64,000 nt of DNA, taken from NCBI RefSeq assembly GCF_031585635.1, contig NZ_CP134195.1, positions 3,100,001 to 3,164,000 of the forward strand. The letters run 5' to 3'. The translations under genes were made by a program, and so were the position numbers. Under the pieces are notes generated by a model. That model searched no databases. It was not told the origin of the DNA and was given only the letters and a program-made list of their open reading frames with translations. Every line of letters begins with the position of its first letter. Within the stretch, counting starts at the first letter, position 1. The stretch comes from Paraburkholderia sp. FT54. GTDB taxonomy: Bacteria > Pseudomonadota > Gammaproteobacteria > Burkholderiales > Burkholderiaceae. Below are positions 351 to 25,606 of the stretch, piece by piece.

Positions 351-1618
351 TCAGGCCTCGGTTACGCGCGTGGCCGTCGCGGTCGTCGCGACAGCGCCCC
401 GCATCCGGCGCCCGAGCCAGATCACTGACGTGATGCCGAGGACGGCCGTCGCCATCACGTAGAAACTCGGCGCGAGCTTGCTGTGGGCCGCGTCGATCAG
501 CCAGGTCACGATCAACGGAGCGAAGCCGTCGAACAGCGTCACCGAGAAGTTGTAAGACAGCGCGAGGCTCGCCGCGATAAGCAGGCCGACGAACGCTTGC
601 ACCGCGAGCAGCGTCTCCACTGTCGGATAGCGGTTCAACAGCACGAACAGCGGCCACGTCGTCCCGCAACGAGAATCAGCGCGCATAGCATCACACGAAT
701 GCGACCGAAACGGTCTGACAGATGCCCGACGACCGGCGCCTCGACCATCAGCGTCACGCCGGTGACGACCGCACCGAGGAACGACGACGTCGCCGGGATA
801 TTCAGCTGCTTGACCGCGTAGGTCGGCATATAGAGCTTGTGCACGTAGTTGAAGGCCGTGGCGGCCGCGACCACGCCTGCGCCGAGCAGCATGTTCGCGC
901 GATCGCGGACGAATACATCGCGCAGCGGCGATTTCGCACGCCCTTTCTCGCCGAGGCGCCGGAAATCGGCCGGCTCGGCAACGTTGCGGCGGATGTACAG
1001 TCCGACCGAGCCGATCAGCAGCCCGACCGAGAATGCGACGCCTCAGCCCCACGAGTGCAGCTGGTCGGGTGTCAGCAACAGGCTCAGCAGCGCGGACACG
1101 CCAGCCGCGAGCACGGTCGCGAGACCCTGCGTCGACATCTGCCAGCTCGCGAAGAAGCCGCGATGCTTTGCATCGGACTGCTCGACCATGAACGCGGTCG
1201 CGGCGCCAAACTCGCCGCCCGTCGAGAAACCCTGCAGCATCCGCGCGACGATGATCACGAGTGGCGACGCGATGCCGATCTGCGCGTACGTCGGCGCGAA
1301 CGCGATCATCGCGGTGCCGAGCATCATCAGCCCAATCGACACGGTGAGCGACGCTTTGCGGCCCGCGCGATCCGCATAGTTGCCGAGCACGATCGAACCG
1401 AGCGGACGCGTGACGAACGAGATGCCGAACGTACCGACCGACAGCAGCAACGACGTCGCCGCATCTTGTGTTGGGAAAAACAGCTGGCCGATCACGATCG
1501 CGAAGTAGCCGTAGATCAGCAGGTCGTAGAATTCGAGCGCGTTGCCGATGCTCGCGGCGCATATCTCGCGCCACGGGTTGTGGGAGGCCGGCGTCCCGGC
1601 GCGCGTGTTGCGAGTCAT
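351..1618 (-). pseudogene. Broken MFS transporter of the metabolite:H+ symporter (MHS) type
   Basis: Reading from ATG 1618 gives a typical MHS-family N-terminus ('SIGNALEFYDLLIYGYFA', later 'DRAGRKASLTVSIG' and 'ARMLQGFSTGGEFGA'). The frame meets a TGA at about 1043-1045, straight after 'QLHSWG', where relatives continue with a tryptophan. Beyond this stop the same frame keeps family sequence ('GLYIRRNVAEPADFRRLGEKG', 'VVGHLSDRFGR') down to about 660. There it loses one base and the C-terminal helices continue in another frame ('PLFVLLNRYPTVETLL' to the stop at 351). One nonsense change and one frameshift make a full-length 12-helix carrier unlikely. Homologues carry shikimate, citrate, proline/betaine or similar organic acids. 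Sequencing error could explain one lesion, less easily both. Confidence 0.85.
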
Positions 1619-1801
1619 GCCCTGGTTCCTCTGTTAGCGTTGTTGTAAATATTTTGAAGGACGGCAGATACCGAACGGACGCCCGTTCGACCCAGTCCAG
1701 CGCGGAGTGTAGGCAACGCAAAATGTCCGTTCGTGCCATTTCGGCACCGAAACGTGCCGATTGGCGTTCGGGTGGATCGAAGGCGGAGCGTCACTTACGC
1801 T

Positions 1802-2719
1802 TCAGGCCGCCGGCGCGCCGCGGTCGACGCGAGCGGGTGCTGTACGCCAGATCGCATCCAGCACGGGACGCGGATCGTTCCGACGCCGATACAGCGCGAT
1901 GTCGAAGCCGATCTGCCAGTCGGGGCCACCGACGATCGCGAGCTCGCCGCGCCGCACTTCGTCGGCGACGAGCCGCTTCGGCAGCCATGCGAGCCCGAGC
2001 CCACGCCGCGCCATCGCGAGGATCGCCTCGTACGAATCGGCCTGGTATACGGGCCGCAACACCGGACGGTTCTGCATTTCAGCGAGGTGCCGCGCGAGGA
2101 CCGCCCGCAATGCCAGCGTGCGCGCGAACGCGAGCCACGGCACGGGCTCCTGGCCGGCCGGCAGCCGGTAGCGCAAACTGCCGCGGCCATCGAACGCGCT
2201 GACGGGCACGAGCACCTCACGCGCGACGGACAGCCAGTCGAAGCGATCGCGATCGATCAGGAGCCGCGTATGAGGACTCGAATAGACTATCAGCATGTCG
2301 GCGTCGCCGGCGGTCAGCTGCAGGATCGCTTCCTCCGCGCCGCCCGTCGACAGCGTCGCCGAGAAGAAGCCCGCGCGCGCGACCATCTCGTCGTACCAGT
2401 TGGGAAAAAACGTCGCCGCGAGCGTTCGGCCGGTCGCGATCCGGAGATTGTTCTCGCGCACCGGAGCCGTTTCCTGCAACTGGGTGCGCGCGCCGTGCAG
2501 CATGTCGAGCGCGTTCGAGGCCGTGTCGAGCAATACTGCGCCGGCTGCCGTCAGTTCGAACGGCTTTGTGCACGCAATCAGCCGCGTGCCGACCCATTCC
2601 TCGAGCGACCGGATGCGGCGGCCGAATGCAGGGTGCGTGACGAAGCGGTTCTCCGCCGCGCGCGTGAAGCTGCGCGTGCGCGCGAGTTCAACGAAGTCTT
2701 CGAGCCATTTCAGTTGCAT
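1802..2719 (-). CDS. LysR-family transcriptional regulator
   Basis: This 305-residue protein has an N-terminal winged helix-turn-helix (about residues 1-60: 'FVELARTRSFTRAAENRFV', then 'RRIRSLEEWVGTRL') and a C-terminal effector-binding domain (about 90-300). Its length is normal for the family. It starts at ATG 2719. It lies upstream of and parallel to the broken MFS carrier and the AstE-like hydrolase, so it probably controlled that transport/catabolism set. The cognate ligand is unknown. It appears intact although its neighbour is broken. Confidence 0.9.
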   Translation of the reverse strand: MQLKWLEDFVELARTRSFTRAAENRFVTHPAFGRRIRSLEEWVGTRLIACTKPFELTAAGAVLLDTASNALDMLHGARTQLQETAPVRENNLRIATGRTLAATFFPNWYDEMVARAGFFSATLSTGGAEEAILQLTAGDADMLIVYSSPHTRLLIDRDRFDWLSVAREVLVPVSAFDGRGSLRYRLPAGQEPVPWLAFARTLALRAVLARHLAEMQNRPVLRPVYQADSYEAILAMARRGLGLAWLPKRLVADEVRRGELAIVGGPDWQIGFDIALYRRRNDPRPVLDAIWRTAPARVDRGAPAA

Positions 2720-9512: not shown

Positions 9513-9715
9513 GGGCGTGCTCTCCGTGTTGGATGCGCCAAGTCTAAAGGCGGCGCAACGCGTGCGGAATGCTCCCGATGCCAACCCCGGGTTACTCCCA
9601 GGCAAAATCCGCTATCTGTCGGAAAATCCTCTGCCGCATGAAAGAACCACGCGCGAGTGTCGATCAGGAAAAAGGCGCCGAATGAACTGACCCCGCAAAG
9701 TTGGACAGTTTGAGT

Positions 9716-10552
9716 TCAGGTTTGAGCGGGCTGGGTTCTGTACATCACAGGACTCAGCCCGTTCAGTTTGAGCTTGATGCGTTTGTGGTTGTAGTAGTGA
9801 ATGTATTGTCTGATGCCAGCCTTCAACTCGTCGATACTTTCAAACCTGCTCAGCCGGAAGAACTCCGCCTTGAGCGTGCCAAAGAAGCTTTCCATTGCCG
9901 CATTGTCGTAGCAGTTTGCCTTGCGCGACATGCTCTGCGTCAGGCCGTGTTGATCCAGCAGCCTCCGGTAAGCAGGCATCTGGTACTGCCAGCCCTGGTC
10001 TGAATGCAGCAGCGGGGTCTCCTGGGGACCAAGCTTTGCCAGCGCTTTTTTTAGCATGCTGCTGACCAGATCGAAGACCGGTCGGGTGTTCATCTGATAA
10101 GCCACGATCTCGCCGTTATACAGATCCATGATCGGCGAGAGATACAGCTTCTGACCCAGCACGTTGAACTCCGTCACGTCCGTCACCCACTTCTGATTGG
10201 GCTGCTGTGCGCTGAACTCGCGGTTTAACAGGTTCGGCGCAATACGGCCGACTTCGCCGCGCCATGAGCGGTATTTCTTCGCGCGCACCAGCGATTTCAG
10301 TTTCAGTTCTCCCATCAGACGTTGCACCGTCTTGTGGTTCACGCTCGGGCCTGCCTGCCGGATCGCCGCCGTGATGCGCCGGTAGCCATAACGGCCCTTG
10401 TGGCGTTCATACACAGTCTTGATGCGGGTTTTGAGGTCCTTGTGCCGCTCACCGGCATCCGGCACGCTCAACTGGTAATAGAACGTGCTGCGCGCCAGAC
10501 CCGCTGCCTTCAGCAAAGCGGGCATCGGGTGGTGCTGCCGGAGCTCCTGCAC
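9716..10552 (-). CDS. IS150-group transposase OrfB (copy 1)
   Basis: This 278-residue DDE integrase-type catalytic subunit has Asp125 ('VTDVTEF'), Asp185 ('HSDQGWQY') and Glu221 ('NAAMESFFG'), a DD(35)E spacing typical of IS3-family rve domains. An HTH_21-like segment with 'GYRRITAAIRQ' lies at about residues 57-67. It overlaps orfA by one base (TAGTG). A lysine-rich A-run at the end of orfA allows a -1 frameshift to make an OrfAB fusion, as known in the family. It is identical in protein sequence to the copy at 24677-25513. Confidence 0.95.
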   Translation of the reverse strand: MQELRQHHPMPALLKAAGLARSTFYYQLSVPDAGERHKDLKTRIKTVYERHKGRYGYRRITAAIRQAGPSVNHKTVQRLMGELKLKSLVRAKKYRSWRGEVGRIAPNLLNREFSAQQPNQKWVTDVTEFNVLGQKLYLSPIMDLYNGEIVAYQMNTRPVFDLVSSMLKKALAKLGPQETPLLHSDQGWQYQMPAYRRLLDQHGLTQSMSRKANCYDNAAMESFFGTLKAEFFRLSRFESIDELKAGIRQYIHYYNHKRIKLKLNGLSPVMYRTQPAQT

Positions 10553-11079
10553 TATTTGCGCTTTTTCTTCTGCACGCCCTGCTTCTTTGCCTGAAGCAGG
10601 GCATCGAGCTTTTTTAGATAGGCCACCTCCGCGCGCAGGTACTCGTTTTCCTTGAGCAACTGCTCACGCGTGCGCTTATCTGGCGCACTGTCTTCGGTCG
10701 GCTTTTCAGGAACTGGCTGGGTCATGGTTTTGCGGCGCCATCGTGGACGAGGCGCCAGTGCGTCGATACCGCCTTCATGATACCGGCGTTCCCATTGCGC
10801 TATGCAGCCCGGACTGCGGATGTCGAACACCGCAGCCACCTGCCGGTATGGCAAATCCTTCTGCCACATGTGCATGAGTACCGACATCCTGAACTGCGCG
10901 TCATAGTGACTGAATTTCTTGCGCAGTCCGTCCCGTCCATGTTGCTCGTAGGCCGAAATCCACAGCTGTAAAACCGAGCGACTCACTCCATACCGCTTTG
11001 CAAGTACCTCGACACCAGCCGAACCGGCCACGTACTGCTTCACCAGCTTCAGCTTTAACTGCTCACTGTACTTCGTCAT
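10552..11079 (-). CDS. IS150-group transposase OrfA, helix-turn-helix (copy 1)
   Basis: About 175 residues. Two helix-turn-helix modules are visible: 'GVEVLAKRYGVSRSVLQLW' near the N-terminus and 'PYRQVAAVFDIRSPGCIAQW' at about 90-110. A C-terminal leucine-zipper-like coil follows ('EQLLKENEYLRAEVAYLKK'). It binds the IS ends. ATG 11079 (MTKYSEQ) is preferred; a GTG nine bases upstream is possible. This copy has Arg in 'EQHGRDGL' where copy 2 has Gln, a single G/A difference. Confidence 0.93.
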   Translation of the reverse strand: MTKYSEQLKLKLVKQYVAGSAGVEVLAKRYGVSRSVLQLWISAYEQHGRDGLRKKFSHYDAQFRMSVLMHMWQKDLPYRQVAAVFDIRSPGCIAQWERRYHEGGIDALAPRPRWRRKTMTQPVPEKPTEDSAPDKRTREQLLKENEYLRAEVAYLKKLDALLQAKKQGVQKKKRK

Positions 11080-11170
11080 GAAAAACACCCCAAAAGGTTG
11101 GATCGGTGTCCAACTTTTGGGGTGCAGTTCACGAAGCGCCTTTTTCCGTCAAGCTGCATTGCAAGCCGAA

Positions 11171-11362
11171 TTACGGCGCGTTGCGCTTTGCATTGTCCTT
11201 GGCGTCTTCCTTAGCGTCGCCATAGGCCTTCTGCACTTTGCCCGCGCCTTGTTGCAGATCGCCCTTGATTTCCTTGCCCGGGTTGTTCGTAGCCTTGCCG
11301 ACTGCTTCGTTGACCTTGCCCTTAACCTGCTCGGTCACACCCTTCACCTGGTCCTTGTTCAT
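11171..11362 (-). CDS. CsbD-family stress-response protein
   Basis: This 63-residue hydrophilic protein starts at ATG 11362 (MNKDQVKGVTEQ) with GGAG eight bases upstream. The repeated Lys-Gly/Glu pattern 'GKVNEAVGKATNN' ... 'EIKGDLQQGAGKVQKAYGD' is the CsbD signature. Relatives are general-stress proteins of unknown biochemical role. Its presumed terminator, about 24-39 bases past the stop, is the hairpin split by IS copy 1. Confidence 0.9.
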   Translation of the reverse strand: MNKDQVKGVTEQVKGKVNEAVGKATNNPGKEIKGDLQQGAGKVQKAYGDAKEDAKDNAKRNAP

Positions 11363-18778: not shown

Positions 18779-20179
18779 TTAAGCGTCCGCGCCGCCCAGT
18801 GCGCGCGATTCGCCGGCGGCGTCGCCGTCTTCACGCGCGTCGTTGCCGTACTCGACCAGACGGTTGTAAAGCGTCTTCAGGCTGATGCCGAGAATCTCGG
18901 CGGCTCGCGTCTTCACGCCGCCGCACTGCTCGAGCGTAGCCAGAATCAGCTGACGGTCCGCTTCGGCAAGCGACGTGCCGAACGGAATCGTGATCGCCGT
19001 GCCGGCGGCGGGCTTCGACAACGTGATCTGCAACGGCACCGTCGCCGTGCTGTCCGAATCCGTACCCGACATGATGTGGGCGCGCTGCACGTAGTTCTTC
19101 AGTTCGCGCACATTGCCCGGCCACGGATACGACATCAGCATGTCCTTCACGGCCGGGGGGAAATGCTTCTTCGTGCTGTGTCGTTCGTTCAGTTCGTCGA
19201 GGAACGCCTGAGCCAGCAGTTCGACGTCCTTGCCGCGGTCGCGCAACGGCGGCAGGCTGATCGGAAACACGTTCAACCGATGGTACAGGTCGAGCCGCAG
19301 CTTGCCTTCCAGCACGGCCTGCTCGGGATCGCGGTTGGTGGCCGCAATCAGGCGCACATCCGTTTCAATTTCCCTGGTCGTGCCGACCCGCATGAACATG
19401 CCGGTTTCCAGCACGCGCAACAGCTTCACCTGCAACTCGATCGGCATCTCGGTGATTTCGTCGAGGAACAGCGTGCCGCCGTTCGCGCGCTCGAAATAGC
19501 CCTTGTGCTGACGGTCCGCGCCGGTAAACGAGCCGCGCTCGTGGCCGAACATCTCCGATTCGATCAGGTTCGGTGAGATCGCGCCGCAGTTCACCGCAAG
19601 AAACGCGTGTTTGCGACGCAAGCTGAGTTGGTGCAGCGTCTGCGCGGCGACTTCCTTGCCGGTGCCCGACTCGCCCACCAGCATGACCGAGGCCGCCGTC
19701 GGCGCGACCCGGCCGATCTGGTCGTAGACCTCCTGCATGGCCGGCGAATTGCCGAGCATCAGGCCGAAGCGGCCCATGCGGCGCAACTCGCCGCGCAACG
19801 TGCCGATTTCCGCCTTCAGGTCGCCGGCGCGCGGCAGGCGCGAAAGGATCGCCTTCACGCGCTGCATGTTGATCGGCTTCACCAGATAGTCGGTGGCGCC
19901 CATTTTCAGCGCGTTGACGGCCGACTCTACTGTGGCATGGCCGGTGATCACGATCACTTCCACGCCGGAGCGCGGATCCAGATCTTCGAACAGATCGACC
20001 CCGCTGCCGTCGGGCAGCTTCAGGTCCGTAAAGACAACGTCCGGCATCTGCCGGACCAGTTGAATGCGCGCTTCGCGCAAATCGCCCGCGGTGGCGGTAG
20101 TCAGGCCGTCTTCCCCGATGATGGCGGAAAGCGCCTCGCGGGTACCGGCATCGTCATCGACAATCAGTACATGTGGCAT
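18779..20179 (-). CDS. NtrC-family sigma54-dependent response regulator
   Basis: This 466-residue protein has three domains. The receiver has the phospho-acceptor Asp52 ('VVFTDLKLP', residues 1-115). The AAA+ domain has Walker A 'GESGTGKE' at 169-176, the sigma54-contact loop 'GSFTGA' at 216-221 (Ser in place of the usual Ala) and 'GTLFLDEITEMP'. A Fis-type HTH lies at the end ('CGGVKTRAAEILGISLKTLYNRL'). ATG 20179 is chosen because the receiver begins right there. No histidine kinase gene is next to it. The AAA+/HTH parts are clearly related to the activator at 21508-22566. Confidence 0.93.
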   Translation of the reverse strand: MPHVLIVDDDAGTREALSAIIGEDGLTTATAGDLREARIQLVRQMPDVVFTDLKLPDGSGVDLFEDLDPRSGVEVIVITGHATVESAVNALKMGATDYLVKPINMQRVKAILSRLPRAGDLKAEIGTLRGELRRMGRFGLMLGNSPAMQEVYDQIGRVAPTAASVMLVGESGTGKEVAAQTLHQLSLRRKHAFLAVNCGAISPNLIESEMFGHERGSFTGADRQHKGYFERANGGTLFLDEITEMPIELQVKLLRVLETGMFMRVGTTREIETDVRLIAATNRDPEQAVLEGKLRLDLYHRLNVFPISLPPLRDRGKDVELLAQAFLDELNERHSTKKHFPPAVKDMLMSYPWPGNVRELKNYVQRAHIMSGTDSDSTATVPLQITLSKPAAGTAITIPFGTSLAEADRQLILATLEQCGGVKTRAAEILGISLKTLYNRLVEYGNDAREDGDAAGESRALGGADA

Positions 20180-21507: not shown

Positions 21508-22566
21508 ATGGCGTCAATCGACCTGGCCTCGCCCACCGTCTCCGCTGGCGGCAATGCTTCGGCACTGGCGAAGCAGCGTGTCGCGGACGGCATCGCGGGA
21601 CTGAAATCGTACGGGCTGCTGTACGGCTCGTCGCCGGTGATGCTGGATCTGTACCAGCAGATCGAGCGCGTCGCCGGCACCGACGCGACCGCGCTGATCA
21701 TCGGCGAATCCGGCACGGGCAAGGAGTTGATCGCCCGCACGATTCACGATCAAAGCAACCGCAAGGACGCACCGTTCGTCGCCGTGAACTGCGGTGCGAT
21801 TCCTGACGAACTCATCGAAGCCGAACTGTTCGGCCACGAGAAAGGCAGCTTCACAGGCGCGGTCCAGGGGCGCGTCGGCTACTTCGAACACGCGAACGGC
21901 GGCACGCTGTTCCTCGACGAAATCACCGAAATGGCGCCGGTGCGCCAGGTGAAGCTGCTGCGCGCGCTCGAAACCGGCACGTTCTACCGGGTCGGCGGCA
22001 ATGACCTGATCAGCGGCAACGTGCGCGTGATCGCCGCGACCAATCGCGACCCCGCGGTAGCGGTCAAGGAAAACGGTCTGCGTGAAGACCTCATGTACCG
22101 GCTCGCGGTTTTCCCGCTGCGCGCGCCGCCGCTGCGCGAGCGCGAGAGCGATCGCGAACTGCTGGCGCAGCACTTCCTCGCGCTGCTGAATCAGCAGGAA
22201 GGCACGAGCAAAAGCTTCAGCAAACGCTCGATCGAAACACTGCGCACCTGGTCGTGGCCGGGCAACGTGCGCGAGTTGAAGAACGCGGTGTATCGCGCTT
22301 TCATTCTCGCGGAGAAGATCGTGGAGTTGCCGCATCCACATCTCGCATCGCGCGTGAAAAAACCCATGACACAGGGCGACGCAATGAGCGTATGGATCGG
22401 CACGCCACTCGCCGACGCGCAAAAACAGATCATTCTCGGCACGCTCAAATATTGCGGTGGCGACAAACGGCGCGCGGCCAAAGCCCTCGGCGTGAGCCTC
22501 AAAACCCTGTACAACCGCTTGAGCGCATATGGCGATGAAGGCGCGGAAGAAGACGCGGAGCAATAA
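21508..22566 (+). CDS. Sigma54-dependent activator without receiver domain
   Basis: This 352-residue protein is an AAA+ activator: Walker A 'GESGTGKE' (66-73), 'GSFTGA' (113-118), 'GGTLFLDEITEM' and 'WPGNVRELKNAVYRA'. It ends in a Fis-like HTH 'CGGDKRRAAKALGVSLKTLYNRL'. Only about 35 residues precede the AAA+ core, so it lacks a receiver or other sensor domain and may be constitutively active or held by an unknown partner. It closely parallels the C-terminal two-thirds of the 18779-20179 regulator, suggesting duplication. ATG 21508 has no strong ribosome site. Confidence 0.9.
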   Translation: MASIDLASPTVSAGGNASALAKQRVADGIAGLKSYGLLYGSSPVMLDLYQQIERVAGTDATALIIGESGTGKELIARTIHDQSNRKDAPFVAVNCGAIPDELIEAELFGHEKGSFTGAVQGRVGYFEHANGGTLFLDEITEMAPVRQVKLLRALETGTFYRVGGNDLISGNVRVIAATNRDPAVAVKENGLREDLMYRLAVFPLRAPPLRERESDRELLAQHFLALLNQQEGTSKSFSKRSIETLRTWSWPGNVRELKNAVYRAFILAEKIVELPHPHLASRVKKPMTQGDAMSVWIGTPLADAQKQIILGTLKYCGGDKRRAAKALGVSLKTLYNRLSAYGDEGAEEDAEQ

Positions 22567-24068: not shown

Positions 24069-24149
24069 CTGCGCTGCAATGAAAAAACGGCAGGGTCTGA
24101 ACTGCACCCCAAAAGTTGGACACCGATCCAACCTTTTGGGGTGTTTTTC

Positions 24150-24677
24150 ATGACGAAGTACAGTGAGCAGTTAAAGCTGAAGCTGGTGAAGCAGTACGTG
24201 GCCGGTTCGGCTGGTGTCGAGGTACTTGCAAAGCGGTATGGAGTGAGTCGCTCGGTTTTACAGCTGTGGATTTCGGCCTACGAGCAACATGGACAGGACG
24301 GACTGCGCAAGAAATTCAGTCACTATGACGCGCAGTTCAGGATGTCGGTACTCATGCACATGTGGCAGAAGGATTTGCCATACCGGCAGGTGGCTGCGGT
24401 GTTCGACATCCGCAGTCCGGGCTGCATAGCGCAATGGGAACGCCGGTATCATGAAGGCGGTATCGACGCACTGGCGCCTCGTCCACGATGGCGCCGCAAA
24501 ACCATGACCCAGCCAGTTCCTGAAAAGCCGACCGAAGACAGTGCGCCAGATAAGCGCACGCGTGAGCAGTTGCTCAAGGAAAACGAGTACCTGCGCGCGG
24601 AGGTGGCCTATCTAAAAAAGCTCGATGCCCTGCTTCAGGCAAAGAAGCAGGGCGTGCAGAAGAAAAAGCGCAAATAG
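24150..24677 (+). CDS. IS150-group transposase OrfA, helix-turn-helix (copy 2)
   Basis: Same as the copy 1 protein except Gln instead of Arg in 'EQHGQDGL'. Two HTH modules and a C-terminal coil are present. The start at ATG 24150 lies immediately after a hairpin plus T-run, so expression from outside should be weak. The 3' end has the A-rich 'AAG AAA AAG' run suited to -1 slippage, and the stop overlaps the GTG of orfB (TAGTG). Confidence 0.93.
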   Translation: MTKYSEQLKLKLVKQYVAGSAGVEVLAKRYGVSRSVLQLWISAYEQHGQDGLRKKFSHYDAQFRMSVLMHMWQKDLPYRQVAAVFDIRSPGCIAQWERRYHEGGIDALAPRPRWRRKTMTQPVPEKPTEDSAPDKRTREQLLKENEYLRAEVAYLKKLDALLQAKKQGVQKKKRK

Positions 24678-25513
24678 TGCAGGAGCTCCGGCAGCACCAC
24701 CCGATGCCCGCTTTGCTGAAGGCAGCGGGTCTGGCGCGCAGCACGTTCTATTACCAGTTGAGCGTGCCGGATGCCGGTGAGCGGCACAAGGACCTCAAAA
24801 CCCGCATCAAGACTGTGTATGAACGCCACAAGGGCCGTTATGGCTACCGGCGCATCACGGCGGCGATCCGGCAGGCAGGCCCGAGCGTGAACCACAAGAC
24901 GGTGCAACGTCTGATGGGAGAACTGAAACTGAAATCGCTGGTGCGCGCGAAGAAATACCGCTCATGGCGCGGCGAAGTCGGCCGTATTGCGCCGAACCTG
25001 TTAAACCGCGAGTTCAGCGCACAGCAGCCCAATCAGAAGTGGGTGACGGACGTGACGGAGTTCAACGTGCTGGGTCAGAAGCTGTATCTCTCGCCGATCA
25101 TGGATCTGTATAACGGCGAGATCGTGGCTTATCAGATGAACACCCGACCGGTCTTCGATCTGGTCAGCAGCATGCTAAAAAAAGCGCTGGCAAAGCTTGG
25201 TCCCCAGGAGACCCCGCTGCTGCATTCAGACCAGGGCTGGCAGTACCAGATGCCTGCTTACCGGAGGCTGCTGGATCAACACGGCCTGACGCAGAGCATG
25301 TCGCGCAAGGCAAACTGCTACGACAATGCGGCAATGGAAAGCTTCTTTGGCACGCTCAAGGCGGAGTTCTTCCGGCTGAGCAGGTTTGAAAGTATCGACG
25401 AGTTGAAGGCTGGCATCAGACAATACATTCACTACTACAACCACAAACGCATCAAGCTCAAACTGAACGGGCTGAGTCCTGTGATGTACAGAACCCAGCC
25501 CGCTCAAACCTGA
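24677..25513 (+). CDS. IS150-group transposase OrfB (copy 2)
   Basis: A 278-residue rve-type catalytic subunit, identical to that of copy 1: Asp125, Asp185, Glu221 with DD(35)E spacing. It begins at a GTG overlapping the orfA stop by one base. The upstream frame stays open over the A-run, allowing an OrfAB fusion by -1 frameshift, as in other IS3-family elements. The two near-identical copies argue for recent transposition. Confidence 0.95.
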   Translation: MQELRQHHPMPALLKAAGLARSTFYYQLSVPDAGERHKDLKTRIKTVYERHKGRYGYRRITAAIRQAGPSVNHKTVQRLMGELKLKSLVRAKKYRSWRGEVGRIAPNLLNREFSAQQPNQKWVTDVTEFNVLGQKLYLSPIMDLYNGEIVAYQMNTRPVFDLVSSMLKKALAKLGPQETPLLHSDQGWQYQMPAYRRLLDQHGLTQSMSRKANCYDNAAMESFFGTLKAEFFRLSRFESIDELKAGIRQYIHYYNHKRIKLKLNGLSPVMYRTQPAQT

Positions 25514-25606
25514 ACTCAAACTGTCCAACTTTGCGGGGTCAGTTCAGGTCTCCCCTGCCGTTTTTGCTTCGCGTCGGTTCGCGCCTCTTAATCATCTCGC
25601 ACGCGC

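Follow-up and report, generated by a model that had tools for sequence, protein, structure and literature searches.

An IS150-group insertion sequence in a terminator loop, and a preference for terminator apices among its relatives

Introduction

Within the window (the whole 64,000-nucleotide stretch of Paraburkholderia sp. FT54 DNA analyzed here), a 1,449-bp element of the IS3 family, IS150 group, interrupts a perfect 12-bp terminator stem behind csbD, and a second copy lies further along. An earlier note, made from the sequence, had proposed that such elements follow a target rule, namely insertion at the hairpin apices of terminators. The locus thus raises the question of whether the position of this copy is a coincidence or reflects target choice and, if the latter, how far this choice extends among related elements and what property of the DNA would be read.

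Results

The element and its insertion site

Deleting the element along with one copy of CGAA rebuilds a dyad of 12 Watson-Crick pairs with CGAA as its loop and with its apex exactly at the center of the duplication (offset 0.0), which bears out the earlier proposals that copy 1 sits in the loop of an intrinsic terminator and that the 4-bp duplication is the whole loop. The split stem lies 23 bases from the 3' end of csbD (PF05532), and was assigned as the terminator of this gene because of that position. Among 56,580 positions drawn from 400 kb of this genome, 0.13% have an equally strong dyad whose apex is no more than 8 bp away, and 0.019% combine it with an A/T run of 5 or more; the dyad at site 1 is not a product of chance. 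Folding the 60 bases around the junction, as had been suggested, proved too blunt a measure and was set aside as non-discriminating: at site 1 the energy ranks no better than the lowest 10% among 3,000 randomly chosen positions, since most 60-mers picked from this GC-rich genome fold well and folding energy is blind to the effect. The centered-dyad measure does discriminate.

The element displays the two overlapping frames of the IS3 family, with a helix-turn-helix OrfA and an rve/DDE OrfB. The NCBI profile NF033516 (“IS3 family transposase”) matched OrfB with 350 bits (cut-off 160) and OrfA alone with 47.5, alongside PF00665 and helix-turn-helix domains. Copy 1 begins TGAACTGACCCC and finishes GGGGTGCAGTTCA; the ends form TGAACTG..CAGTTCA inverted repeats, and duplications of 3 or 4 bp flank 11 of 11 copies in this genome, in keeping with the TG..CA ends and 3-5 bp duplications typical of the IS3 family. 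Members of the IS150 group have an OrfB that clusters with that of IS150, and in our tree OrfB groups with IS150, apart from other IS3-family elements. IS3-family elements use a -1 frameshift on A6G and a circle intermediate; the A6G run found here we take to be the likely programmed frameshift motif. The database record of the relative ISEcB1 carries the annotation “programmed frameshift”. Separately, the last codons of OrfB (9726-9762) include a hairpin-forming stretch, GCGGGCTGGGTTCTGT-loop-ACAGGACTCAGCCCGT, without a T run, and the window holds an inverted repeat of 224 nt (19382-19605 versus 21773-21996; 76% complementary, 2.2 kb apart).

Table 1. Coordinates of the element copies, their target sites and the IS150 copies beside hok genes. 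Positions are those of the window, except in the last row.
Feature	Position	Strand	Basis
Left half of split stem at site 1, GGAAAAAGGCGC	9667-9678	+	Joined-site dyad
CGAA target duplication, left copy (entire loop)	9679-9682	+	
IS3-family (IS150-group) element, copy 1; transposase genes on minus strand	9683-11131	-	
OrfB, rve integrase (DDE) domain	9716-10552	-	ORF list; NF033516, PF00665
OrfA, helix-turn-helix domains; likely ATG 11077-11079	10552-11088	-	ORF list; domain search
A6G run, likely programmed frameshift site	10609-10615	-	Read from sequence
Transposase-side end: terminator-like hairpin CACCCCAAAAGTTGG..CAACCTTTTGGGGTG, then TTTTTC, directly before ATG	11080-11124	-	
CGAA target duplication, right copy	11132-11135	+	
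Right half of split stem at site 1, GCGCCTTTTTCC	11136-11147	+	Joined-site dyad
csbD, gene whose terminator was hit	11171-11362	-	PF05532, E 2.8e-17
Left stem half of copy-2 terminator, AAAAACGGCAGGG	24083-24095	+	Derived from L010 flanks
Element copy 2 (L010), 100% identical to copy 1, inverted, in loop of another terminator	24098-25546	+	
Right stem half of copy-2 terminator, CCCTGCCGTTTTT	25553-25565	+	Derived from L010 flanks
IS150 copies beside hok genes (L265, L267, L268, L269, L270, L271, L273)	401-1843		

Other copies in the genome and empty alleles

The genome contains 12 matches to the element, of which 11 are full-length copies, all with a rounded identity of 100%. Sites were scored with a detector that calls a Watson-Crick dyad of score 18 or more whose apex is at most 8 bp from the duplication center. 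Six of the 11 copies (L002, L004, L006, L008, L009 and L010) were found in strong dyads accompanied by at least five consecutive A or T, L010 being copy 2, which the earlier note had counted toward the same rule. The genomic background for a strong dyad with an A/T run is 0.1-0.2% of positions (0.095% for a run of 5 or more). This strict DNA-palindrome detector undercounts terminators that are imperfect or have long loops, and cases judged by eye were tallied apart: L001 falls in one arm of a terminator whose loop is longer, raising the tally of this check to 7 of 11; L005 and L011 lie in imperfect hairpins with an A-rich side; and at two of the 11 copies, L003 and L007, no hairpin was found by detector or by eye. 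Chance coincidence at one or two copies would draw on the fact that hairpins near junctions are common in a GC-rich genome, a score of 18 without the run criterion being reached at 4.9% of positions. This explanation has a negligible probability, given a binomial P of 3e-14 for 6 of 11 copies with a run of 4 or more, and is refuted by the counts over the 101 pooled sites described below (55 of them from the best 80 of 580 matches).

Empty alleles retained the terminator. The joined site 1 returned matches in 126 of 144 genomes of the genus, many of them to csbD alone, and 30 loci were examined, one of which is the copy described here. The same hairpin or a close variant is present at 27 of the other 29, a result in line with the proposed rule, with a score of 18 or more at 23 and a lower score at L186, L193, L197 and L200; it is not present at two of the 29 (L201 and L203). 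Both flanks align without the element at 11 of the site-1 loci. For ISEcB1, Escherichia coli K-12 MG1655 has empty fum and sseA sites with a single copy of the duplicated bases and an intact terminator (99.2% and 100% identity over 120 bp, respectively), and at the nuoN site the hairpin and right flank are intact while the left flank is set apart by extra genes. The orthologous nuoN terminator of Klebsiella aerogenes is occupied by the element too, in a record labeled as a plasmid that includes nuoN along with other chromosomal genes; its duplication is a different one (AAAA versus CATG), and this insertion is therefore probably independent. Further E. coli loci that share the nuoN site were excluded from the counts.

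Target sites across the clade

Among 144 genomes of the same genus, 94 matched the element, often through short end fragments; an 85% identical element with five copies in one genome (G008) lies in terminators at 4 of 4 scored sites. An OrfB scan of genome contigs, in which at least 593 stretches matched and the best 80 of 580 confirmed ones were used, extended the range from Burkholderiaceae to Halomonas, Acinetobacter, Mesorhizobium, Bacillota and Chitinophaga. Element ends were picked from the repeat score and the duplication, never from hairpins. This yielded 83 distinct sites, 55 from the best 80 of 580 matches and 28 from this genome and genus. Sampling 299 genomes evenly across the phylum, and scoring part of the clade places listed there, added 13 further sites, 12 of which have a hairpin of score 18 or more. 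With five ISEcB1-type sites, the pooled set amounts to 101 distinct sites; those of ISKpn1, ISPsy9 (L168, for which ends were not found) and IS150 were kept outside it.

Loci were dropped when ends could not be confidently placed (L062, L076, L077, L087, L088, L097, L102, L103, L111, L114, L116, L120, L126, L129, L131 and L137; L062, with good repeats and no duplication, was removed by hand), when the junction contained an N (L067), or when a contig ended within 40 bases of the element (L080, L083, L086, L095, L121, L122, L124 and L125). Genus loci were excluded for a contig end (L017 and L029), a missing end, or flanks duplicating those of another locus (L052 and L055, which repeat L016 and L022). 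From the phylum sample, L253, L210, L211 and L213 were dropped as ends were not found, and L215, L216 and L260 as lying outside the clade (37-39% identity). The ends of L101, L104, L107, L127 and L135 were shifted by 5 bp, TAATC/GATCA being part of the repeats, upon which duplications appeared in 5 of 5.

Across the pooled set, which includes 55 sites from the best 80 of 580 matches, counts sites of related elements as independent insertions and consists of standing copies throughout, a hairpin with a score of at least 18 and its apex within 8 bp was detected at 80 of 101 sites. An A/T run of 4 or more accompanies 60 of these 80 hairpins, and a duplication is present at 85 of the 101 sites (55 again from the best 80 of 580); the hairpin score stays below the threshold at 21 sites, and a run of 4 is missing from 20 of the 80 hairpins. 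In the flanks of the 83-site loci (55 from the same best 80 of 580), a score of 18 is reached at 4.5% of 18,724 positions, and at 0.33% with a run. The proposed rule is thus supported, with 60 of 101 sites terminator-like. Scored sites are nearly all from Pseudomonadota; outside this phylum (best 80 of 580 matches), where evidence is thin, a hairpin was found at 2 of 5, namely L130 (Paenibacillus) and L127 (a contig labeled Streptomyces), and L117, L119 and L128 are below the hairpin threshold. Four half-junctions from Chitinophaga eiseniae contig ends (L121 with L122, L124 with L125; excluded from the counts) resemble by eye two A-run/T-run hairpins, if, as we infer, the halves of each pair belong together.

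Four multi-copy IS3-family elements with 31-36% OrfB identity served as controls, with ends set by comparison of their copies. None of their 20 sites reaches a score of 18 (best 17), in a set where 9 of 20 sites have no called duplication and ends may be a base off, a deviation tolerated because of the 8-bp apex window. In an OrfB tree of 73 rows, with a midpoint root for drawing only and without L015, L016, L036, L169 and L259 (OrfB read too short), a 68-row clade (100/100) holds the element described here together with ISEcB1, ISKpn1 and IS150, apart from the five control rows, and terminator sites are scattered across this clade.

Several sub-lineages use other palindromes: L251, L252 and L254 (genome G437) insert at the center of a GTCCCCGC-GCGGGGAC palindrome, L036 and L047 at the center of a TGAACCGCCCCGG palindrome (their relatives L033 and L035 score low), and L025, L032 and L073 at the center of a GTGTCCACCT palindrome. 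Such targets could represent REP-like repeats or the termini of other mobile elements. ISKpn1 has a centered hairpin at 1 of 2 sites (L169), without an A/T run. Alongside these, relatives in Acinetobacter pittii/lactucae (L132, L133 and L136) lie in GGGGACG-rich repeats, possibly a REP-like family, with a hairpin detected at 1 of 3, and the target of L257 (genome G253) is a dyad of AAAAGTGCGGT, which resembles the Haemophilus uptake-sequence terminator.

IS150 itself is a clear outlier within the clade, with a centered hairpin at 0 of 10 copies examined (7 distinct places). Seven of the nine copies sampled in E. coli are found 70-120 bp upstream of a hok-family gene (hokA, hokB, hokE or plasmid hok), and the remaining two in rbsR and in an unnamed place; the K-12 copy (L158, 3134-4576) is 32 bases upstream of hokA. 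At 3 of 5 sites checked, the antisense strand folds as a hairpin with 2-5 G-U pairs, which looks like the terminator region of the Sok antisense RNA, and the K-12 annotation has a sokA pseudogene at the hokA locus. As most of its copies are at hok loci, IS150 was rejected as a negative control, being neither a clean negative nor a positive. The reach of the proposed rule is hence qualified: it stands as a family trait across the clade, with exceptions in L003, L007, the other-palindrome sub-lineages and the IS150 copies, and with a loose fit for L005 and L011.

Centering and symmetry of the target

Among the 70 pooled sites with both a duplication and a called hairpin (part from the best 80 of 580 matches), the apex lies at most 1 bp from the duplication center in 54, compared to 13% of 837 control hairpins, and the duplication falls inside the loop, within 1 bp, in 62. 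When the test point was displaced by 12-140 bp within these joined sites, a centered hairpin was found in 0.9-1.5%, against 63 of 85 at the true position. This drop disfavors mere survival, i.e., random insertion from which intergenic copies alone persist: since terminators are intergenic, survivors would indeed be enriched for intergenic positions, but this predicts no centering, and the four other IS3-family elements show 0 of 20. We consider survival very improbable as the source of the pattern.

The joined sites share a symmetric profile, with an A tract at -10 to -14 (A 0.59-0.74), GC-rich arms and a T tract at +11 to +14 (T 0.56-0.73). Left arms comprise 79 distinct 7-mers among 85 sites (part from the best 80 of 580), and 7 or more of 8 arm positions are complementary at 42 of the 85 sites, compared to 6% after right arms were swapped between sites. 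Such a clear symmetric consensus is also what would be expected if a symmetric dimer read A-tract and GC-rich half-sites independently, hairpins merely following from the makeup of terminators. At the highest profile scores, the data are compatible with this alternative: 71-79% of background positions with a PWM score of at least 12 are hairpins anyway, and at PWM 10-14 sites and neighboring positions are alike (11 of 12 versus 4 of 6, P 0.25), so that sequence and structure are inseparable there. Hairpin enrichment nonetheless persists at PWM scores of at least 8: of 53 such sites, 50 have a hairpin, compared with 66 of 180 and 60 of 241 positions in the background, and with 10 of 17 neighboring positions (P 1e-3). 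Likewise, where A4 on the left and T4 on the right are both present, a hairpin is found at 41 of 42 sites versus 12 of 119 controls (pooled, part from the best 80 of 580), and tracts without a hairpin are therefore almost unused (1 of 42 sites versus 107 of 119 controls). Where neither tract is present, 16 of 25 pooled sites still have a hairpin, versus 777 of 16,778 controls, and some sub-lineages use palindromes without tracts. In a test of pure A/T-tract geometry, most tract distances were 6.5-15 bp, with tails to 24. Independent half-site reading is unlikely, if the most serious competitor; in our reading, structure counts beyond the mononucleotide consensus, and the two are confounded at the best sites.

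The preference for terminators could also arise through transcription, with a paused polymerase or nascent RNA hairpin drawing in the transposase, an idea that the targets themselves and the G-U-containing antisense folds at 3 of 5 IS150 sites would suit. However, insertion occurs at the apex and not at the T run where polymerase stops, relatives also use palindromes that are not terminators, and orientation relative to the terminator shows no bias (15 versus 17, with 28 undirected; pooled, part from the best 80 of 580). In addition, a G-T pair or mismatch occurs within the first 8 stem pairs of 14 of 71 targeted stems versus 65 of 95 terminators of this genome, a comparison, counted per strand, of targets from many genomes with one background genome; within this genome alone the count is 0 of 5 targeted stems. 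Targeted stems are thus purer Watson-Crick palindromes than average terminators, which favors DNA over RNA as the probable object of recognition, and makes transcription-coupled targeting improbable.

A terminator-like hairpin at the element end

Of 58 distinct elements, 29 have a hairpin of score 18 or more in the end repeat on the transposase side, followed by at least 4 T and close before the OrfA start, as in the element described here. Its stems vary among elements yet remain paired (e.g., CACCCCAAAAGTTGGA, ACCCCCGAAAGTTG and CCAATTGTTAGAC). In our reading, the hairpin may act as a putative guard against transcription entering from outside, or as a putative replacement for the split terminator. 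In the same comparison of end repeats it was absent from ISEcB1, ISKpn1 and IS150, and is therefore not needed for the target rule.

Discussion

Taken together, we consider it likely that the transposase of this IS150-group element favors about 28 bp of twofold-symmetric, base-paired DNA with A/T tracts, which in practice means mainly intrinsic terminators. The bias itself, the centering on the apex, its distribution across the Pseudomonadota members of the clade, the lack of it in the four tested IS3-family elements and the intact terminators of empty alleles are observed directly. The preferred target would have two GC-rich self-complementary arms around a short loop, flanked by an A tract 10-14 bp to the left of the center and a T tract 11-14 bp to its right, and the main bacterial match to such a target would be an intrinsic terminator, above all a bidirectional one. 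A symmetric transposase complex would then read symmetric base-paired DNA, and not an RNA hairpin or a paused polymerase, either through paired, cruciform-like arms or through two half-sites and the shape of the A/T tracts. The duplication would arise as the element is joined to each strand at points staggered by 3-5 bp across the loop. Insertion into terminators would presumably spare genes, and the end hairpin of about half of the elements may replace the split terminator for transcription entering from that side.

A broader reading, which we offer tentatively and hold for doubtful as it stands, is that the IS150 group possesses a general structure-reading target module capturing extruded or extrudable dyads of any sequence, with terminators as its basic niche, REP, IS-end and other palindromes as derived ones, and with many elements bringing their own end-repeat terminator to mend the transcription unit they enter.

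By tending to land at terminator apices, these elements would spare genes and split the stop signals between them, which implies that they may rewire readthrough between neighboring genes. A clade-wide landing rule would help explain the low-harm spread of a common transposon group and the presence of IS copies between genes, and would offer a natural tool for intergenic insertion.

Palindrome-targeting insertion sequences are already known. Targeting of REP sequences has been described for IS3-family elements including ISKpn1, and a table in the same paper places 1 of 2 IS150 and 1 of 1 ISPsy9 insertions at REP; experiments are said there to implicate the transposase in site choice (PMC1525189). 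IS1397, ISKpn1 and ISPsy8, which target REP/PU palindromes, share a palindromic target with the element described here, and ISKpn1, of the same clade, has one copy (L169) whose duplication is centered on a hairpin apex. Unlike these three, which use one repeated sequence family, our element and its nearer relatives use unrelated stems, mostly with A/T tracts, as reflected in the 79 distinct left arms among 85 sites (part from the best 80 of 580 matches).

IS1272/TnSha1, of the IS1182 family, target hairpins without a sequence consensus and in both orientations, including several terminators confirmed by RNA-seq (PMC4923244), and are described as producing no target duplication, part of the stem being removed or an inverted repeat replaced (PMC4923244, PMC5678879). 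Judged by these accounts, they differ from the present element in transposase family and outcome: our element duplicates the loop and removes no sequence, with duplications in 11 of 11 copies of this genome and 85 of 101 pooled sites (55 from the best 80 of 580). Group IIC introns often have terminators as their stem-loop targets. As RNA-based retroelements, they recognize a stem-loop DNA motif (PMC10190682) that lies 5' of the insertion, and is not split at the apex as it is by our element. For ISSau2, called a member of the IS150 subgroup, the account of insertion sites in one paper reports no nucleotide sequence specificity and genes among the targets (PMC4433286), and the corresponding passage of a second says merely that sites were analyzed elsewhere (PMC5771124).

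The passage on ISEcB1 consulted in the literature makes no mention of target choice, and in the open literature, to which our search was confined, we found no earlier report of a terminator rule for the IS150 group. ISEcB1 itself (IS3 family, IS150 group; E. coli B and BL21, with close relatives in Kluyvera and Klebsiella aerogenes) belongs to the same clade and has similar ends. It differs from the element described here in having no terminator-like hairpin at its transposase-side end, and resembles it in its targets, 4 of 5 distinct sites examined being terminator hairpins (fum, sseA, and nuoN twice). Since E. coli B and BL21 harbor ISEcB1, laboratory strains can be used to test whether DNA structure or sequence is what a DDE transposase reads.
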